Shown: positions 30,257 to 64,000 of the stretch, piece by piece
Layout: each line of letters begins with the position of its first letter
Position numbering within the stretch: the first letter of the stretch is position 1
From: Diphasiastrum complanatum
Taxonomy: Eukaryota > Streptophyta > Lycopodiopsida > Lycopodiales > Lycopodiaceae
Direction of reading: 5' to 3'
NCBI GenBank assembly: GCA_029204225.1
Contig: CM055106.1
Span: 3,587,147 to 3,651,146 of the forward strand
Length of the DNA stretch: 64,000 nucleotides
Notes under the pieces: model-generated
Databases searched by the model: none
The model's input: only the letters and a program-made list of their open reading frames with translations
Told to the model about the DNA's origin: nothing
Program-made: the position numbers and the translations under genes

Positions 30257-31088
30257 TGTTTAATTTCACACATGTGGATTTTCCACTACATGTACTTGTG
30301 ATCTCCTAAGGTGTGTAGATGCACCAAGATCAAGACTAGATTGAGATTCAAGATCTATCTTTGATTCTATGGCAAAAACACACTACTACATGCATTCAAT
30401 CACTTCCAACTCTCACTCACACGTGTGGAAAGTGTTCCAAAACTATTCTAAGTAAAAACAAGCTGCTCTCCTTGGATAGAGAGAGAAAAACCATCATGAG
30501 CTCTCGGGTAGAGAGAGAAAGCTAGAAATTCAATGACACTCAAAATCCACTCAATCTCAAAATCAATTAGATCCAAATGAGGAGTACAATGATACTAGTA
30601 GATCCACAAGCTATCACTATGCTTAACTATGATTGGATCACACTTTTCCACCTCTTAATCCTATTGGACCATTGATCCATGCACCTCTTAATTCTATTGG
30701 ACTATATTCAAGCACACCTCAAATTCCTATTGGACCACACATGATTCCACCTCTAAATCCTATTGGACCTCTTAAACTTCATCAAACAATAGCATTACAC
30801 TTGTCTACACTCTAATTGGCACAAGTTTGGCCTCCTACTCTATTTTGGCTCAATAGTGGCATTACAAGTGGAAATGGATAATTTGCCATCTATGCCAAAT
30901 TTGACCCTATCAACATCCTACACCTAAATGCTTGACTATGAAATTCTATGAGACCCCTATCTCAAACATTTTTATTTACTTTACAATTCTCTACACGTGG
31001 GAACATCCTCCTTCTCCACACATGTGAGATTCATTTACAAACTTCTATCATAAAAAATACCAAGCTAGATTTTTGCCAATTTCTCACA
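30257..31088 (-). mobile_element. 3' LTR of copia B
   Basis: 832 bp, TG...CA bounded. On the minus strand it begins TGTGAGAAATTGG after the PPT. It contains a CACACGTGTG palindrome (30418-30427), two gggtagagagaga-type motifs and four imperfect plus-strand repeats of (a/t)atcctattggacc between 30650 and 30770. Confidence 0.93.
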
Positions 31089-34590: not shown

Positions 34591-35416
34591 TGTTGAATTT
34601 CACACGTGTGGATTGTCCACTACATGTACTTGTGATCTCCTAAGGTGTGTAGATGCACCAAGATCAAGACTAGATTGAGATTCAAGATCTATCTTTGATT
34701 CTATTGCAAAAACACACTACTACATGCATTCAATCACTTCCAACTCTCACTCACACGTGTGGGAAGTGTTCCAAAAGTATTCTAAGTAAAAACAGGCTGC
34801 TCTCCTTGGGTAGAGAGAGAAAAACCATCATGAGCTCTTGGGTAGAGAGAGAAAGCTAGAAATTCAATGACACTCAAAATCCACTCAATCTCAAAATCAA
34901 TCAGATCCAAATGAGGAGTACAATGATACTAGTAGATCCACAAGCTATCACTATGCTTAACTATGATTGGATCACACTTTGCCACCTCTTAATCCTATTG
35001 GACCATTGATCCATGCACCTCTTAATTCTATTGGACTATATTCAAGCACACCTCAAATTCCTATTGGACCACACATGGTTCCACCTCTAAATCCTATTGG
35101 ACCTCTTAAACTTCATCAAACAAAAGCATTACACTTGTCTACACTCTAATTGGCACAAGTTTGGCCTCCTACTCTATTTTGGCTCAATAGTGGCATTACA
35201 AGTGGAAATGGATAATTTGCCATCTATGCCAAATTTGACCCTATCAACATCCTACACCTAAATGCTTGACTATGAAATTCTATGAGACCCCTATATCAAA
35301 CATTTTTATTTACTTTACAATTCTCCACACGTGGGAACATCCTCCACACATGTGAGATTCACTTACAAACTTCTATTATAAAAAATACCAAGCTAGATTT
35401 TTGCCAATTTCTCACA
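34591..35416 (-). mobile_element. 5' LTR of copia B
   Basis: 826 bp, starting TGTTGAATTTCACACG and ending ttctcaca on the plus strand. It carries CACACGTGTG at 34601-34610 and 34753-34762. A 6-bp block (ttctcc) present in the 3' LTR is missing here, giving the length difference. Confidence 0.93.
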
Positions 35417-38153: not shown

Positions 38154-38824
<671 letters not shown>

Positions 38825-51726: not shown

Positions 51727-51735
51727 AAAAAAAAA
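51727..51735 (-). terminator. Pol III terminator of U6
   Basis: Run of nine T on the minus strand directly after the U6 3' end. Confidence 0.85.
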
Positions 51736-51781
51736 TTTGGACCATTTCTCGATTTGTGCGTGTCATCCTTGCGCAGGGGCC

Positions 51782-51813
<32 letters not shown>

Positions 51814-51833
51814 TCGGATGTCTCCGAAGAGAC
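51732..51833 (-). ncRNA. U6: U6 spliceosomal snRNA gene
   Basis: A full-length 102-nt U6 on the minus strand. The 5' stem-loop is GTCTCTTCGGAGAC, followed by the universally conserved ACAGAGA box (in gatacagagaagattagca), the AGC triad region, CCCCTGCGCAAGGATGACAC and the 3' end AAATGGTCCAAATTTT. It runs into a Pol III terminator of nine T. U6 base-pairs with the 5' splice site and U2 in the spliceosome. The usual plant stem GTCCC/GGGAC is changed at both members of one pair (C-G to U-A), keeping the stem intact. Upstream TATA and USE elements with Pol III spacing support a functional gene rather than a pseudogene. Confidence 0.96.
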
Positions 51834-55835: not shown

Positions 55836-56378
55836 CAAATACTCTTTGAGCCAAAAGGCTGAGCAAAGCTCCCACTTGGATTGAAGATCCCCTTTTGGAT
55901 GAACATAGTGTCAACAATCTTTTGCATAAATTTTGGTGTACTTTGTTGAGCATGTAAGTAACTCTCCTTACGTAATTTGATTGGAGCATTTGCTGGAAGG
56001 TTTTAACCATTATGCAAATGTGTTTTCAGGATCTTAACAGGTTGAGGAACATTCTCATTTGAAGTGATCTTAGATCTGCATCTAAACGCCAAGATTTGAC
56101 AAGCTAGTGAAGCTAGTCTTGTGATTCACTAAGTGTGCTCTTTCATTCACCTCTAAAGCTTGTATTTATCATTTTTTGGAGTTTATAAGCTTTTAGAAGT
56201 GTGGTTTGCATGTGGTTTTACAGGTTGAATCAATATCTTAGTGTGTTGATAATATGTTGATCAAGTTTGTTCAATTCCAGGTATTCTTGGCAGCCTAGTC
56301 TTGTGTATTTTCTAAAAATGCAAGTAACTCTTCACGTCATAATTTGATTTCATCAATGGAGGTGATAAAAACTCTTCT
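55836..56378. other. Intergenic with a diverged duplicated block
   Basis: No gene. A block near 55950-55990 (gcatgtaagtaactctcctt) recurs near 56316-56360 in diverged form. Confidence 0.4.
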
Positions 56379-56384
56379 TTGGAA

Positions 56385-56822
56385 ATGGTTGTTGCTAATG
56401 ACTCATGTACTCATTTGGAAAAAGATGGTGCTTTGAGCATGTTTGAAGAAAAAGTTTCTTTTGCATCTTTATGTGATGTGTCCCAGAAAGTCATTTGTGC
56501 AACAAGTGGTGTCACATGTATTTATAAAGAAAGTAGATTAAAAGGTTCTATCATGAGACTTGGTGAGGAATATCTCAAGTCAAAAGTGAGAGAAGTGTTC
56601 AAAGTAGGATGTACTTTGAATGATGCTTTTGTGAATGATAGTGAGGGTTCATTATCATTACCTATATCATTGATTAGAAGTCTAGGTTTGACAATAAAAA
56701 GTACTTCAATCATTCTTATGTTGAAGGGACTATGTATTCTTTTTATGGCTTCTAATGTTCGAGATTCTTCCATTTCTTATGATGCAACTATCAAGAGGAG
56801 ATTGCTAACTTTTGTGGTGTGA
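56385..56822 (+). CDS. Hypothetical protein, 145 codons
   Basis: Plus-strand ORF from ATG 56385 to a TGA ending at 56822. It is Ser/Val/Leu-rich (GTFHLEKD-like start, then VSFASLCDVSQKVICATSGV, FKVGCTLNDAFVNDSEGSLS, LPISLIRSLGLTIKSTSIIL). No family is recognised and no retroelement signature is visible. It overlaps by 4 bases the next ORF, which continues in another frame, so the two may be one broken coding sequence. Confidence 0.35.
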   Translation: MVVANDSCTHLEKDGALSMFEEKVSFASLCDVSQKVICATSGVTCIYKESRLKGSIMRLGEEYLKSKVREVFKVGCTLNDAFVNDSEGSLSLPISLIRSLGLTIKSTSIILMLKGLCILFMASNVRDSSISYDATIKRRLLTFVV

Positions 56823-57196
56823 TCATTAAGAGGGAGTCTTGTGAAGGAAAGGGACAAGGAAGAGTGACTCTTGGGAAGATCCAAGGTATGGATCTTACAT
56901 CTATTCATCGACTCAGAGGATGCTATGATTGTGGTGGAGTGTTCATTCATCAAGATGGCAAAAGGTTGGATGAAGAAGACTACATGGAGCAAATCAAGTG
57001 GCAATTTCTTCAAGGCAAGGAAGATCTCATTGGTGAGCTCATTGAGGTTTGGTTTGAATTCAAATGGGCTAGTTTGATTAAGTTTGATACTCAACTTCAT
57101 CTACTCTACTTCATGTTGGATAGAATTGTAGAAATTTATCTTTTGGTTTATGATGGTGACACTGTTTTCACTAACTATCAATTGTCTTCGATTTAA
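56819..57196 (+). CDS. Hypothetical protein, 125 codons
   Basis: Plus-strand ORF with KGQGRVTLGKIQGMDLTSIH, GCYDCGGVFIHQDGKRLDEE and LIGELIEVWFEFKWASLIKF. The composition is that of a globular protein with acidic and aromatic residues. It overlaps the preceding ORF by 4 bases in a different frame. It lies about 350 bp upstream of the ACGTG-rich promoter array. Unrecognised; it could be the 3' end of a gene or a TE ORF. Confidence 0.4.
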   Translation: MIIKRESCEGKGQGRVTLGKIQGMDLTSIHRLRGCYDCGGVFIHQDGKRLDEEDYMEQIKWQFLQGKEDLIGELIEVWFEFKWASLIKFDTQLHLLYFMLDRIVEIYLLVYDGDTVFTNYQLSSI

Positions 57197-57552
57197 GCTT
57201 TGCCTTTTTCTACGATGAGTACTTTCGGTCTCGTTGTCTGTCGGGGGATTGGTCTCATTGGAAGATTCCCAATGGGGGAAAGTCCCACACTTGCCCTTAC
57301 GCGAGTGATCAGGGTAACGCCATTTCCAATTCCGAGGGCCATCCTAATCACCCCGTACTCCCAAATCAATGAGAGTTTTCTAGGCCCTCAGAGGTATGAC
57401 CGCTTGGGAGATGAACTGATTATCGACCTGGGATGTTGTTTTTTGTCACTTCTACCCTTTCAGATCTTAGCAAGCAACATTTATATAGGTAAAACCAAGA
57501 AAATCCAAGCCGTACACTCGTCGATCCAACAGCGGATCAGATCTATGACGCG
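57197..57552. other. Spacer with a possible TATA box
   Basis: A ttatatagg motif near 57481-57489 could be a second TATA element. No ORF with recognisable content. Confidence 0.3.
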
Positions 57553-57945
57553 TAGTACAACCATCCACACGTGCGAGACCACACGTGCTACAATACGCGT
57601 CAATCTGCCATTCGCCCACGAGCCCACACGTGCAAGATCACACGTGCCAGAACACACGTCACTAAACCATTGGACCACGTGGACACACGTGCAAGTTTCA
57701 CACGTGCGGATACAAAGGTGTAGGTCCCACACGTCAGGTACTGATTGGCCACGTGACCACACATGCGAGTCTATAAGTGCGAGAACACATGTCACTGATC
57801 CATTCGGCCACATGTACCCACGTGGGTTTCCCACACTGTTGATCCAGACGTGCAGTTTCACACGTGCATATACAAATGTGTGGTTCCACATGTCAGCTAT
57901 TGACTGGGCCATGTGTCACTGGTATTCACACGTGCCAATTTTTCT
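57553..57945 (+). promoter_or_regulatory. Dense ACGTG (G-box/ABRE-like) array, internally duplicated
   Basis: About 14 ACGT cores in under 400 bp, most as CACACGTGC or CCACGTGG, interspersed with CACATGTC/CATGTG variants. The part around 57648-57755 recurs, diverged, at about 57784-57917, with the shared order cac(a/g)tcact, ccatt, gtttcacacgtgc, atacaaa and tattgactgg. CACGTG/ACGTG are known cores for plant bZIP (ABF/ABI5, HY5) and bHLH factors. The array ends 10 bases upstream of a TATA box. Function is inferred. Confidence 0.65.
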
Positions 57946-57949
57946 CTCC

Positions 57950-57957
57950 TATATAAG
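57950..57957 (+). promoter_or_regulatory. TATA box upstream of H3-Ulp1 locus
   Basis: CTATATAA just after the ACGTG array. Transcription would start near 57985, leaving a ~265-nt leader before the ATG at 58251. Confidence 0.6.
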
Positions 57958-58080
57958 TCCATTCCCGAGGATTGTACAGGGTTTTCGCATAATTTGCTGG
58001 CACGTTTGATTGCATCCATACGAAATGCATTCGTGATAGTCACGCGAGCGACCTTCTCCCCATGCCATTCCTTACACCCT

Positions 58081-58183: not shown

Positions 58184-59321
58184 CACAATTAGAGTTCTCA
58201 GTGTCTCTTCTGTTGTGTCTCTATCCTCGCATAGTATAGATTTGGCCTCAATGTCTCGGACGAAGCAAACCGCTAGGCTTACCAGTTTCATTCATCCATC
58301 CCGTCCCTAGACATCTAAATCCGTACGTCCGCAAAGACGCGGTAGACCTAGTCGTCCATGGTTGAGGGACATCAGGGCCTTGCAGAGGAGCATCAAACTT
58401 CTGATTTCAAAAGCAACCTTCTACCGGGGCTGTGAGAGAGGTTACACAAGACATGACCACCCATCTACCCTATGCGGTGAGGTGGAATATCACTGCATTG
58501 GAGGCTCTCCATACTGCATATGAGGATTTCCAGACAGAATTGCTTGAGGATTCGATGTTGTGCTCCATTCATGGCAAGAGGGTGACACTGATGCCCAAGG
58601 ACATGCTTCTTGTCATGAGGCTTCGAAACACCTATGACAGCATTTTTAAGTCTGGATTCACACAGAGGCAAGTTCCTCTCGAAAGGGGGCCTGTCCCACC
58701 CCACAAAAAGAGAAAGCAAGCACAGCCCAAGCGTTCGCAACCCAAGCCCAGGTCTCCCAGCTCTTCACCCTCACCTCCTCCCATTAGAAAAGATCTGGCT
58801 AGTACGTCCGCAATTCCACTAGTTGAGAGTCCTCCCATAACCCTTGATCTTCAACTGCATGATTCTCCTTCTATACATAAGGATGACCTCAATACAGTGG
58901 TAGACATGATTGTTTCTGATGTTGATGCAATTGATAAAGAGTTGCACATCAGACTTCCGAATGAACCTAAAGACACATTTTTTGATTCTAAGAGGTACAT
59001 TGATTTTGACCTGTATATAGCCAGGAAAATAGATGATCTCAGAGGGGGAGTTTATGTTTTGTATAGACGATATTAATTTTGCAATGCGTATCAAAGACCC
59101 GCATTGTAGGGAGCTAAAGAGAAGACCTCATATATCTCAGACACAGTAGTTGAATCTGCTTGTGCATACTATCCACATAATATAACATATACAGTCACGA
59201 AGGAGATTTTTGTTGTATCTCCATTTTTTGGGCATTTGTTGAATAAAGAGAGGAAAGTCAGAAGGCTTTTCAGGCACACCAGCAAAGAGGCATCAATGTT
59301 CATCATCCCATACTGTTCAAA

Positions 59322-59420
59322 GTAAGATAGTTTCTTCTTGTAATATCTGTTTTCTATAAGATTTTTCTTTTGGAAACTCTTATAGATTCTAGTAATTCAT
59401 TGCTTGTCTCTTTCTGGCAG
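59322..59420 (+). other. Intron within the Ulp1-like domain
   Basis: 99-bp GTAAGATAG...TTTCTGGCAG intron. Splicing joins CSN to KHW in frame (phase 2) and restores the catalytic-His block. Confidence 0.8.
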
Positions 59421-59612
59421 CAAACATTGGAGTGTGCACGTCATATCCATGAAAGTGGATTCGACTAGAAGCTGCACACCTATGTGCATGACAATGAATT
59501 CTTTGCATGCCACCATTCCATGATTAAATCCATGTACAAAAGGATGGTGGAGCTATTGCCAAGGCCAGATGGGTTGGTTGTAAATACCAACATAGAGGTT
59601 GTTGATGCAAAG

Positions 59613-59710
59613 GTAAAAGGAATCTTTTTACGTATTTTATTTGCATGATGACATGTAGTTTAGAATTATATAAAATTATACTTTAACAATTCTTCACTGT
59701 GATTTCTCAG
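59613..59710 (+). other. Intron within the Ulp1-like domain
   Basis: 98-bp GTAAAAGG...TTTCTCAG intron between EVVDAK and the exon with the catalytic Cys. The frame is off by one base across the junction. Confidence 0.7.
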
Positions 59711-59817
59711 TCTTGCAACAAGACGATGCTTTCAACTGCGGATGGTATTCAATCTGGAATGTTAAATCGTTCTTGGATTGGTATATGGTGCAACCTCCAG
59801 ATGCTAGTATCCGTGAG

Positions 59818-59927
59818 GTCTTTTTTTAAATGTTCCAGTATCCTGATGATATATTGTTAACTTTGTAAATTTATATATTTTAAAACATTGGCTAATACAT
59901 ACATACACTTGATTTTTTTTTTTGCAG
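59818..59927 (+). other. Probable intron near the Ulp1 C-terminus
   Basis: GT...TTTTTTTTTTTGCAG, 110 bp. The donor GTCTTT is weak but the join SIRE/FQCPEV keeps frame. Confidence 0.6.
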
Positions 59928-60110
59928 TTCCAATGTCCTGAGGTATCAAGAAATGCGATTCATCAATATCGGCATGAAATTGTTGAAAATTTTACTATCA
60001 TGTGCAAGGGCCCTACAAGCATGAAGGTGCCTCGGATGAACCTGCCAAGGGATCCGTGGATGAGGTTACAGTGCTCGAGGATATGCCTCAGGGCACCTTT
60101 GATTGAAATG

Positions 60111-63384: not shown

Positions 63385-64000
63385 TGTTGCAAAAAAAATG
63401 AACGGTGGATCACAAATTTGCAAATATCAATCAGGCACTGCAACAAAACGAAACAAAACTTGAACGAGCTCTGATATTGACATTGCTAAAGAAAACAAAA
63501 TCAAATTAATTGCAAACAAAATAAATTCAGATGGATTTTAGATATGATTGCTGGTCACTGCCTGCTATATCATTCCTACAAATCCTCCAAAAAAGTAGAC
63601 AGACACTGTTGATCTACGTTATAAATTTAATACAACATTCAACAAAGCTGAACTAGTATGCAGAATTGATAAAGACAAGTGAATGAGATACACAAGCGAT
63701 AGCAGATAGTAATTCATTCAAGATCAGGCAAAACTGATAGTGAAGATGTGCGTAATAGCTATAGTATCATCTAGGGATCCTCTTGAATTCGAGCGCTATA
63801 TGACAGATTTCACACAGCGCATTGGCGTGAGAGAAAATAGTATTCTCTCACGAGTCTTGTCTCGCGTAATAGCGTACTTCTTGGATCTCTGTGGATCCTG
63901 CTTACCAAATTGTCTCGCTCACCGAGGCGGACTTCTATTCTATATTATGTATCATCTATCTGCTACTTGTCATGTGCATGTAATTAGCCCATGAGCTTAC
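63385..64000 (-). mobile_element. 5' LTR of copia D2 (runs off the window)
   Basis: Starts TGTTGCAAAAAAAATG on the plus strand and matches the D1 LTR (23149-23895) throughout with many substitutions. The far end lies beyond base 64000. Confidence 0.88.

Follow-up and report, generated by a model that had tools for sequence, protein, structure and literature searches.

A decayed H3-type histone locus with a C48-like protease part, likely once a single chimeric gene, in the clubmoss Diphasiastrum complanatum

The plus strand of Diphasiastrum complanatum DNA at positions 58251-60110 carries an H3-type histone part, a linker and a C48-like part, in this order. All positions are those of the window, which is the whole stretch of 64,000 nucleotides that was analysed. 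The features of the locus and of the sequence immediately upstream are the following.

57565..57935, no strand: CACGTG array of degenerate 59-bp repeats, with 11 CACGTG motifs between 57568 and 57929
57950..57956, plus strand: TATATAA, TATA-box-like, about 295 bp 5' of the ATG, read in the sequence
58251..58430, plus strand: H3 N-terminus MSRTKQTAR, divergent tail, alpha-N and start of alpha-1, with an in-frame stop at 58308-58310
58432..58662, plus strand: remainder of the H3 fold in a different frame, comprising the end of alpha-1, a loop 1 with four extra residues, RW opening alpha-2, and HGKRVTLMPKDM
58663..59043, plus strand: linker, a basic Pro/Ser part (PPHKKRKQAQPKRSQPKPRSP) followed by an acidic part, in the frame of the H3 fold
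59045..59321, plus strand: C48-like exon 1 (...YISDTVVESAC...SMFIIPYCS), which contains frame breaks
59322..59420, plus strand: intron 1 (GTAAG...CAG), whose in-frame join gives IIPYCSNKHW
59421..59612, plus strand: C48-like exon 2 with KHW and YVHDN and a frame break near 59467
59613..59710, plus strand: intron 2 (GTAAAAG...CAG), whose join is out of frame in the present copy
59711..59817, plus strand: C48-like exon 3 with QQDDAFNCGWYS, a candidate Gln and a candidate catalytic Cys at 59737-59739
59818..59927, plus strand: intron 3 (GT...CAG), phase 0 and in frame
59928..60110, plus strand: final exon with the C-terminal tail (FQCPEVSRNAIHQYRHEIVENF...), running to the stop

The copy is dead. 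It is disabled by one stop (58308-58310) and five frame breaks, which lie near 58431, 59043, 59120 and 59467 and between 59612 and 59713, and no protein is possible from it in its present form. The initial annotation had recognized that this copy carries stops and frameshifts, and all the short strings it had read were recovered: MSRTKQTAR at 58251, TALEALHTAYEDFQTELLED and HGKRVTLMPKD downstream of it, IIPYCSNKHW upon removal of the GT-AG intron, and QQDDAFNCGWYS in the protease part from 59716. Its description of the locus as a single plus-strand coding region did not survive, as the H3 part is split over two frames and the stop and the frame breaks interrupt the remainder. The GT-AG introns it had placed in the protease part are indeed present, three in number, but only the first and the third are in frame here, whereas the second is not.

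The CACGTG array lies immediately 5' of the TATATAA and of the ATG of the presumed fusion. Of the 31 CACGTG motifs in the whole window, 11 are found inside this array of about 360 bp. These G-box-like motifs may form a putative upstream control region, and the TATATAA could serve as its TATA box. A stop-free frame of 270 codons directly upstream (57197-58006, plus strand) crosses the array and has no Pfam match, as is the case for the upstream frames at 56343-58006 in general; it is probably a by-product of the repeats. Elsewhere, the window contains a full-length U6 spliceosomal snRNA at 51731-51833 on the minus strand (112.4 bits with a gathering threshold of 44), which is followed by a T run and looks intact, and a perfect (GA)57 microsatellite at 38415-38528. 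It also carries Copia-type and other retroelement pieces. Two direct repeats of about 830 bp (30257-31088 and 34591-35416) are 97% identical and enclose stop-free frames of 120-363 codons; with about 3.5 kb inside, this pair looks like an LTR element, the limits of which are not clean LTR ends.

The histone identity of the H3 part is certain. Pfam Histone (PF00125) scored 80.4 bits on the read-through (E 1.6e-22, cut-off 26.4), which identifies a core histone fold, and 50.5 bits when the unbroken piece 58435-59076 was taken by itself; the 42-residue piece after the stop (58311-58436) gave 17.6 bits, which is under the same cut-off. A match to CENP-T_C of 20.5 bits was below its cut-off of 28.1 and was discounted.

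The initial annotation had described this part as an H3-type tail with the complete H3 histone fold. The profile score bears out the histone fold, but the H3 itself is non-canonical. Compared to H3.3, its loop 1 is four residues longer, and alpha-2 starts with RW instead of RF. The conserved glutamine of alpha-1 is gone, with FQR of H3 being replaced by FYR (Q to Y) both in the H3 part and in the relative P0003 described below. The first nine residues of the tail, MSRTKQTAR, are kept and the remainder is unrelated to H3.3. In PMC7052976, cenH3 candidates were recognized by at least one residue inserted in loop 1, absence of the conserved glutamine in alpha-1, a divergent tail and a divergent fold, and the H3 part displays all four of these features. 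The reading of this part as a canonical H3 was set aside because loop 1 differs and the alpha-1 glutamine is lost.

A firm assignment to CENH3 was rejected as well, because fold identity, PDB ranking and the tree do not support it. Fold identity was 42/86 to H3.3, 41/88 to Arabidopsis CENH3, 39/87 to rice CENH3 and 39/88 to human CENP-A. In a PDB search with the whole H3 part canonical H3 chains ranked before CENP-A chains, whereas with the downstream H3 piece alone cnp1 and CENP-A chimeras ranked first. A 14-row tree left the H3 part unplaced: after P0003, its nearest rows were H3.3 and P0001, each at 1.31. With plant CENH3 of the cenH3/CENP-A family the H3 part shares the loop-1 insertion, the lost alpha-1 glutamine, the W that opens alpha-2 and the divergent tail. 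It differs from plant CENH3 in its canonical-H3-type N-terminus (MARTKQTAR in P0003) and in the protease-like C-terminus of the locus, and neither sequence similarity nor the tree places it among CENH3. Furthermore, carrot and rice CENH3 genes have seven exons according to the portion of PMC4041860 available, whereas the H3 part has no intron. As judged from its sequence, the H3 part is cenH3-like, and we take its classification no further than that.

A protein search with the H3 part returned 4 matches among 18 candidates, and the only close relative found was P0003 (O6H91_14G014700), a 137-residue protein of Diphasiastrum complanatum annotated as a hypothetical protein. It is 85% identical to the H3 part across 100% of the 132-residue query, has a Pfam Histone score of 81.3 bits, and shares with the H3 part the start of the tail (M-A/S-RTKQTARLTSF) and the loop-1 insertion. 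P0003 is unfused and ends at the H3/linker border. It may have been cut short from the same fusion, or H3 alone may be the older form, and the fusion need not ever have become fixed as a gene. The initial annotation had named homologues with separate H3 and Ulp1 parts as the finding that would refute the fusion; P0003, being the H3 part alone, goes some way towards this. A structure prediction for P0003 from four aligned rows was of low quality, with a mean pLDDT of 46.2, and NCBIfam gave no match for either P0003 or P0001.

In the tree, the stem that carries the H3 part and P0003 measures 0.84 changes per column, whereas the two tips are only 0.07-0.08 long. The ancestor of the two had thus diverged far from the other H3s compared while its fold was kept, as expected of a lasting protein, and the long stem says that it had been a separate protein for a long time. 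The H3 part and P0003 differ at 20/136 residues. In the fold region, the differences affect 6/44 of the positions shared with H3 and 7/57 of the other positions, so that there is no sign of constraint since the two split.

No fused relative of about 285-908 residues was found in the protein database with the full read-through as the query (3313 candidates). This search gave two matches, P0001 and P0002, with Histone as the sole Pfam family above cut-off. Both are unnamed proteins (835 and 819 residues) that carry their H3 fold near the C-terminus, behind some 640-660 residues that match no Pfam family. Loop 1 of this fold is very long, and the two represent a different large H3 protein. With the protease part as the query, none of 146 candidates was a homologue at an E of 10 or below, and the 20 pattern matches obtained in viral contigs contained no relative.

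The H3 fold continues into the linker without interruption. A stop-free frame of 223 codons (58405-59073) spans the remainder of H3 and the linker up to the first C48-like residues. Base composition predicts 0.003 such stretches for the window, but this value is a guide only: the window has 46 stop-free frames of 110 codons or more, and 11 of them, this one included, reach at least 223 codons. Some of these 11 are retroelement genes (RVT_1, RVT_2), and another is the 270-codon frame directly upstream. Over the linker, two overlapping segments of 300 nt gave period-3 values of 3.65 and 4.23, which are the highest within 57.0-61.05 kb (the 95th and 99th percentiles for the whole 64,000 nucleotides are 3.84 and 5.88). 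Together, the open frame and these values suggest that the linker was translated with H3. Its 127 residues include 18 Pro, 13 Ser and 21 Lys/Arg and contain KKRK, which we take to resemble a nuclear localisation signal. The basic Pro/Ser linker described in the initial annotation is real and its frame is open to the edge of the C48-like part; a frame break lies between the two.

The pieces and the three introns of 59045-60110 read ...YISDTVVESAC...IIPYCSNKHWSVHVISMK...YVHDN...LQQDDAFNCGWYS... and present the residues of a C48 protease in the catalytic-type order: KHW (His), YVHDN (Asp), QQ and NCG (Cys). These are candidate residues that the alignment points to. The candidate catalytic His is encoded at 59425-59427 and the candidate Asp at 59490-59492, the latter being one residue after the residue aligned to the Ulp1 Asp and three columns off. 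In a three-way alignment with Ulp1 and SENP1, HW, QQ and CG are conserved. Like the Ulp1/SENP enzymes (Peptidase_C48, for example yeast Ulp1 and Arabidopsis ULP1d), this C-terminal part has the H, D, Q, C order and a WLND-like start; it differs from them in being very divergent, in scoring at the threshold level and in its association with a histone.

An alternative explanation is that the C-terminal part derives from an unrelated plant coding region, in which HW...QQ...CG occurs in this order by chance, and was never a C48 protease. The Peptidase_C48 profile (PF02902) gave 20.8 bits with a cut-off of 20.7 (E 3.8e-4), and this marginal score was obtained for one spliced protease reading without X only. 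The match was gone in two other readings, the 519-residue read-through and the 226-residue protease part, both with X, and it was not reported for single exon pieces. The two-domain profile assignment expected from the initial annotation holds for Histone with its 80.4 bits, and for C48 only just, in a single reading. PDB searches found no C48 chain, and hhalign gave an E of 0.035 with a probability of 1.45%. The Smith-Waterman alignment to SENP1 was no better than those of shuffled sequences (430/1000 as high), and an HMM built from the two sequences Ulp1 and SENP1 scored 0.7 bits, with neither real row among the best 12 of 2,002, so not above shuffles. Against the chance explanation stands the alignment to yeast Ulp1, which was 6.7 s.d. 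above shuffles (0/1000 as high) and collinear from the WLND-like start to CG. The PF02902 score, small as it is, is at the curated cut-off and was matched by 0/8 shuffles, and the catalytic-type residues are correctly ordered. We consider a chance origin quite improbable; going by its sequence, 59045-60110 is likely a divergent C48 protease.

With a certain H3 part, a likely C48 part and a frame that is open from H3 to the C48 edge, one chimeric gene is the best reading of the locus. The three parts are on the same strand and in order, and introns 1 and 3 are in frame; against one gene counts the frame break between the linker and the C48-like part. The H3-Ulp1 fusion of the initial annotation is thus retained as the best reading, but the only close relative found is the H3 part alone. 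The H3 part and the C48-like part could also be chance neighbours that never formed one protein. In that case a decayed H3-like gene or retrocopy, similar to P0003, would lie upstream of an independent Ulp1-like gene, or of a piece of a transposon, that has decayed as well. P0003 stops after 137 residues, exactly where the linker begins, and the frame is broken between the linker and the C48-like part. Furthermore, the H3 part is intronless and the protease part has three introns, and a retrocopied H3 that landed upstream of a Ulp1-like gene would explain both. The window also contains long stop-free frames without known domains as well as retroelement pieces. On the other hand, the H3 frame has no stop anywhere in the linker and remains open roughly as far as the first C48-like residues, the period-3 values of the linker are the highest at the locus and suggest its translation with H3, and no repeat of at least 20 nt is listed between 58251 and 60110. 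In our judgement chance neighbourhood is unlikely. With moderate confidence, we read the locus as one degenerate copy of a chimeric gene from a clubmoss-like plant, with an H3-type fold, a linker and a Ulp1/SENP-type protease that would formerly have been parts of one protein.

The presumed fusion could also be the gene of a mobile element, for example a Mutator-like element (MULE), that took up an H3 and a Ulp1 domain and turned the two against silencing, much as the VANC/KIU genes of Vandal MULEs carry a Ulp1 domain. PMC13317346 reports that Ulp1 domains have been acquired by MULEs and that Vandals with KIU cause related elements to become hypomethylated. The VANC/KIU (Kaonashi) genes of Vandal-type Mutator-like elements resemble the locus as plant chimeric genes with a captured Ulp1, and they are linked to the chromatin state of related elements (PMC13317346, same text). 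The decay of the locus and the presence of a homologous H3 part in a clubmoss genome record are what a multi-copy family would show. However, the available text of PMC13317346 has 0 occurrences of histones, and neither MULE ends nor a transposase were found at the locus. A scan for terminal repeats, in which 50.0-58.25 kb was compared with 60.1-64.0 kb and the reach of which is limited by the end of the window at 64000, gave a best inverted match flanking the locus of 25.6 bits, which is within the null of 20 shuffles (24.7-35.6), so no inverted repeats exceed the shuffle null in 50-64 kb. The best direct match flanking the locus was 26.5 bits, a score with no null of its own. No transposase was found among the 10 of the 46 longer stop-free frames that were scanned. 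We regard an origin in a transposable element as rather unlikely.

If the locus is the remnant of one chimeric gene, its intact ancestor would have been a protein of about 520 residues with an H3-type fold carrying cenH3-like features, a basic, Pro/Ser-rich and nuclear-localisation-like linker, and a C-terminal cysteine protease of the Ulp1/SENP type. The histone part would pair with H4 and be delivered to chromatin, which could be centromeric or silenced, and the tethered protease would strip SUMO from nearby chromatin or kinetochore-assembly proteins. The SUMO substrate, the tethering to chromatin and any link to the centromere are what we infer from the domains. Most plausibly, the intact ancestor would have acted as a SUMO protease tethered to chromatin, in which the histone served as the anchor and the C48 part as the enzyme.

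No H3-Ulp1 fusion is described among the literature matches listed, which comprised open-licence papers and were judged by the title and the start of the abstract. Fusions of histone folds to other domains are known from macroH2A and from histones of giant-virus metagenomes that are joined to unknown proteins (PMC9145170, portion available). These resemble the presumed ancestor in having a histone fold and another domain in one chain, but the same portion of PMC9145170 contains no pairing of H3 with a C48 protease. For the enzyme, the available text of PMC12903445 reports that Arabidopsis ULP1d deSUMOylates alphaKNL2 and thereby enables its centromere targeting. In human cells, SENP6 activity maintains CENP-A chromatin, and removal of SUMO is needed for stable centromeres (available part of PMC6981222). 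With these two precedents, a cenH3-like anchor on a SUMO protease would be biologically sensible.

The presumed fusion is known from one dead copy, and what follows should be read with this caution. One could go further and propose a clubmoss gene family, past or present, in which a centromere-type H3 and a SUMO protease of its own form one fusion protein. Such a self-tethering deSUMOylase would license its own deposition or protect its chromatin from SUMO-dependent removal, and intact members may persist, possibly spread by mobile elements. We consider this proposal improbable as it stands. If it is true, a protein of the H3-Ulp1 type would combine targeting and enzyme in one chain, and the link between SUMO and the centromere would become testable in an early vascular-plant lineage. 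Carriage of the gene by a transposon would make it one more recruitment of Ulp1 by such elements, beside VANC/KIU, here with a histone as the chromatin anchor.
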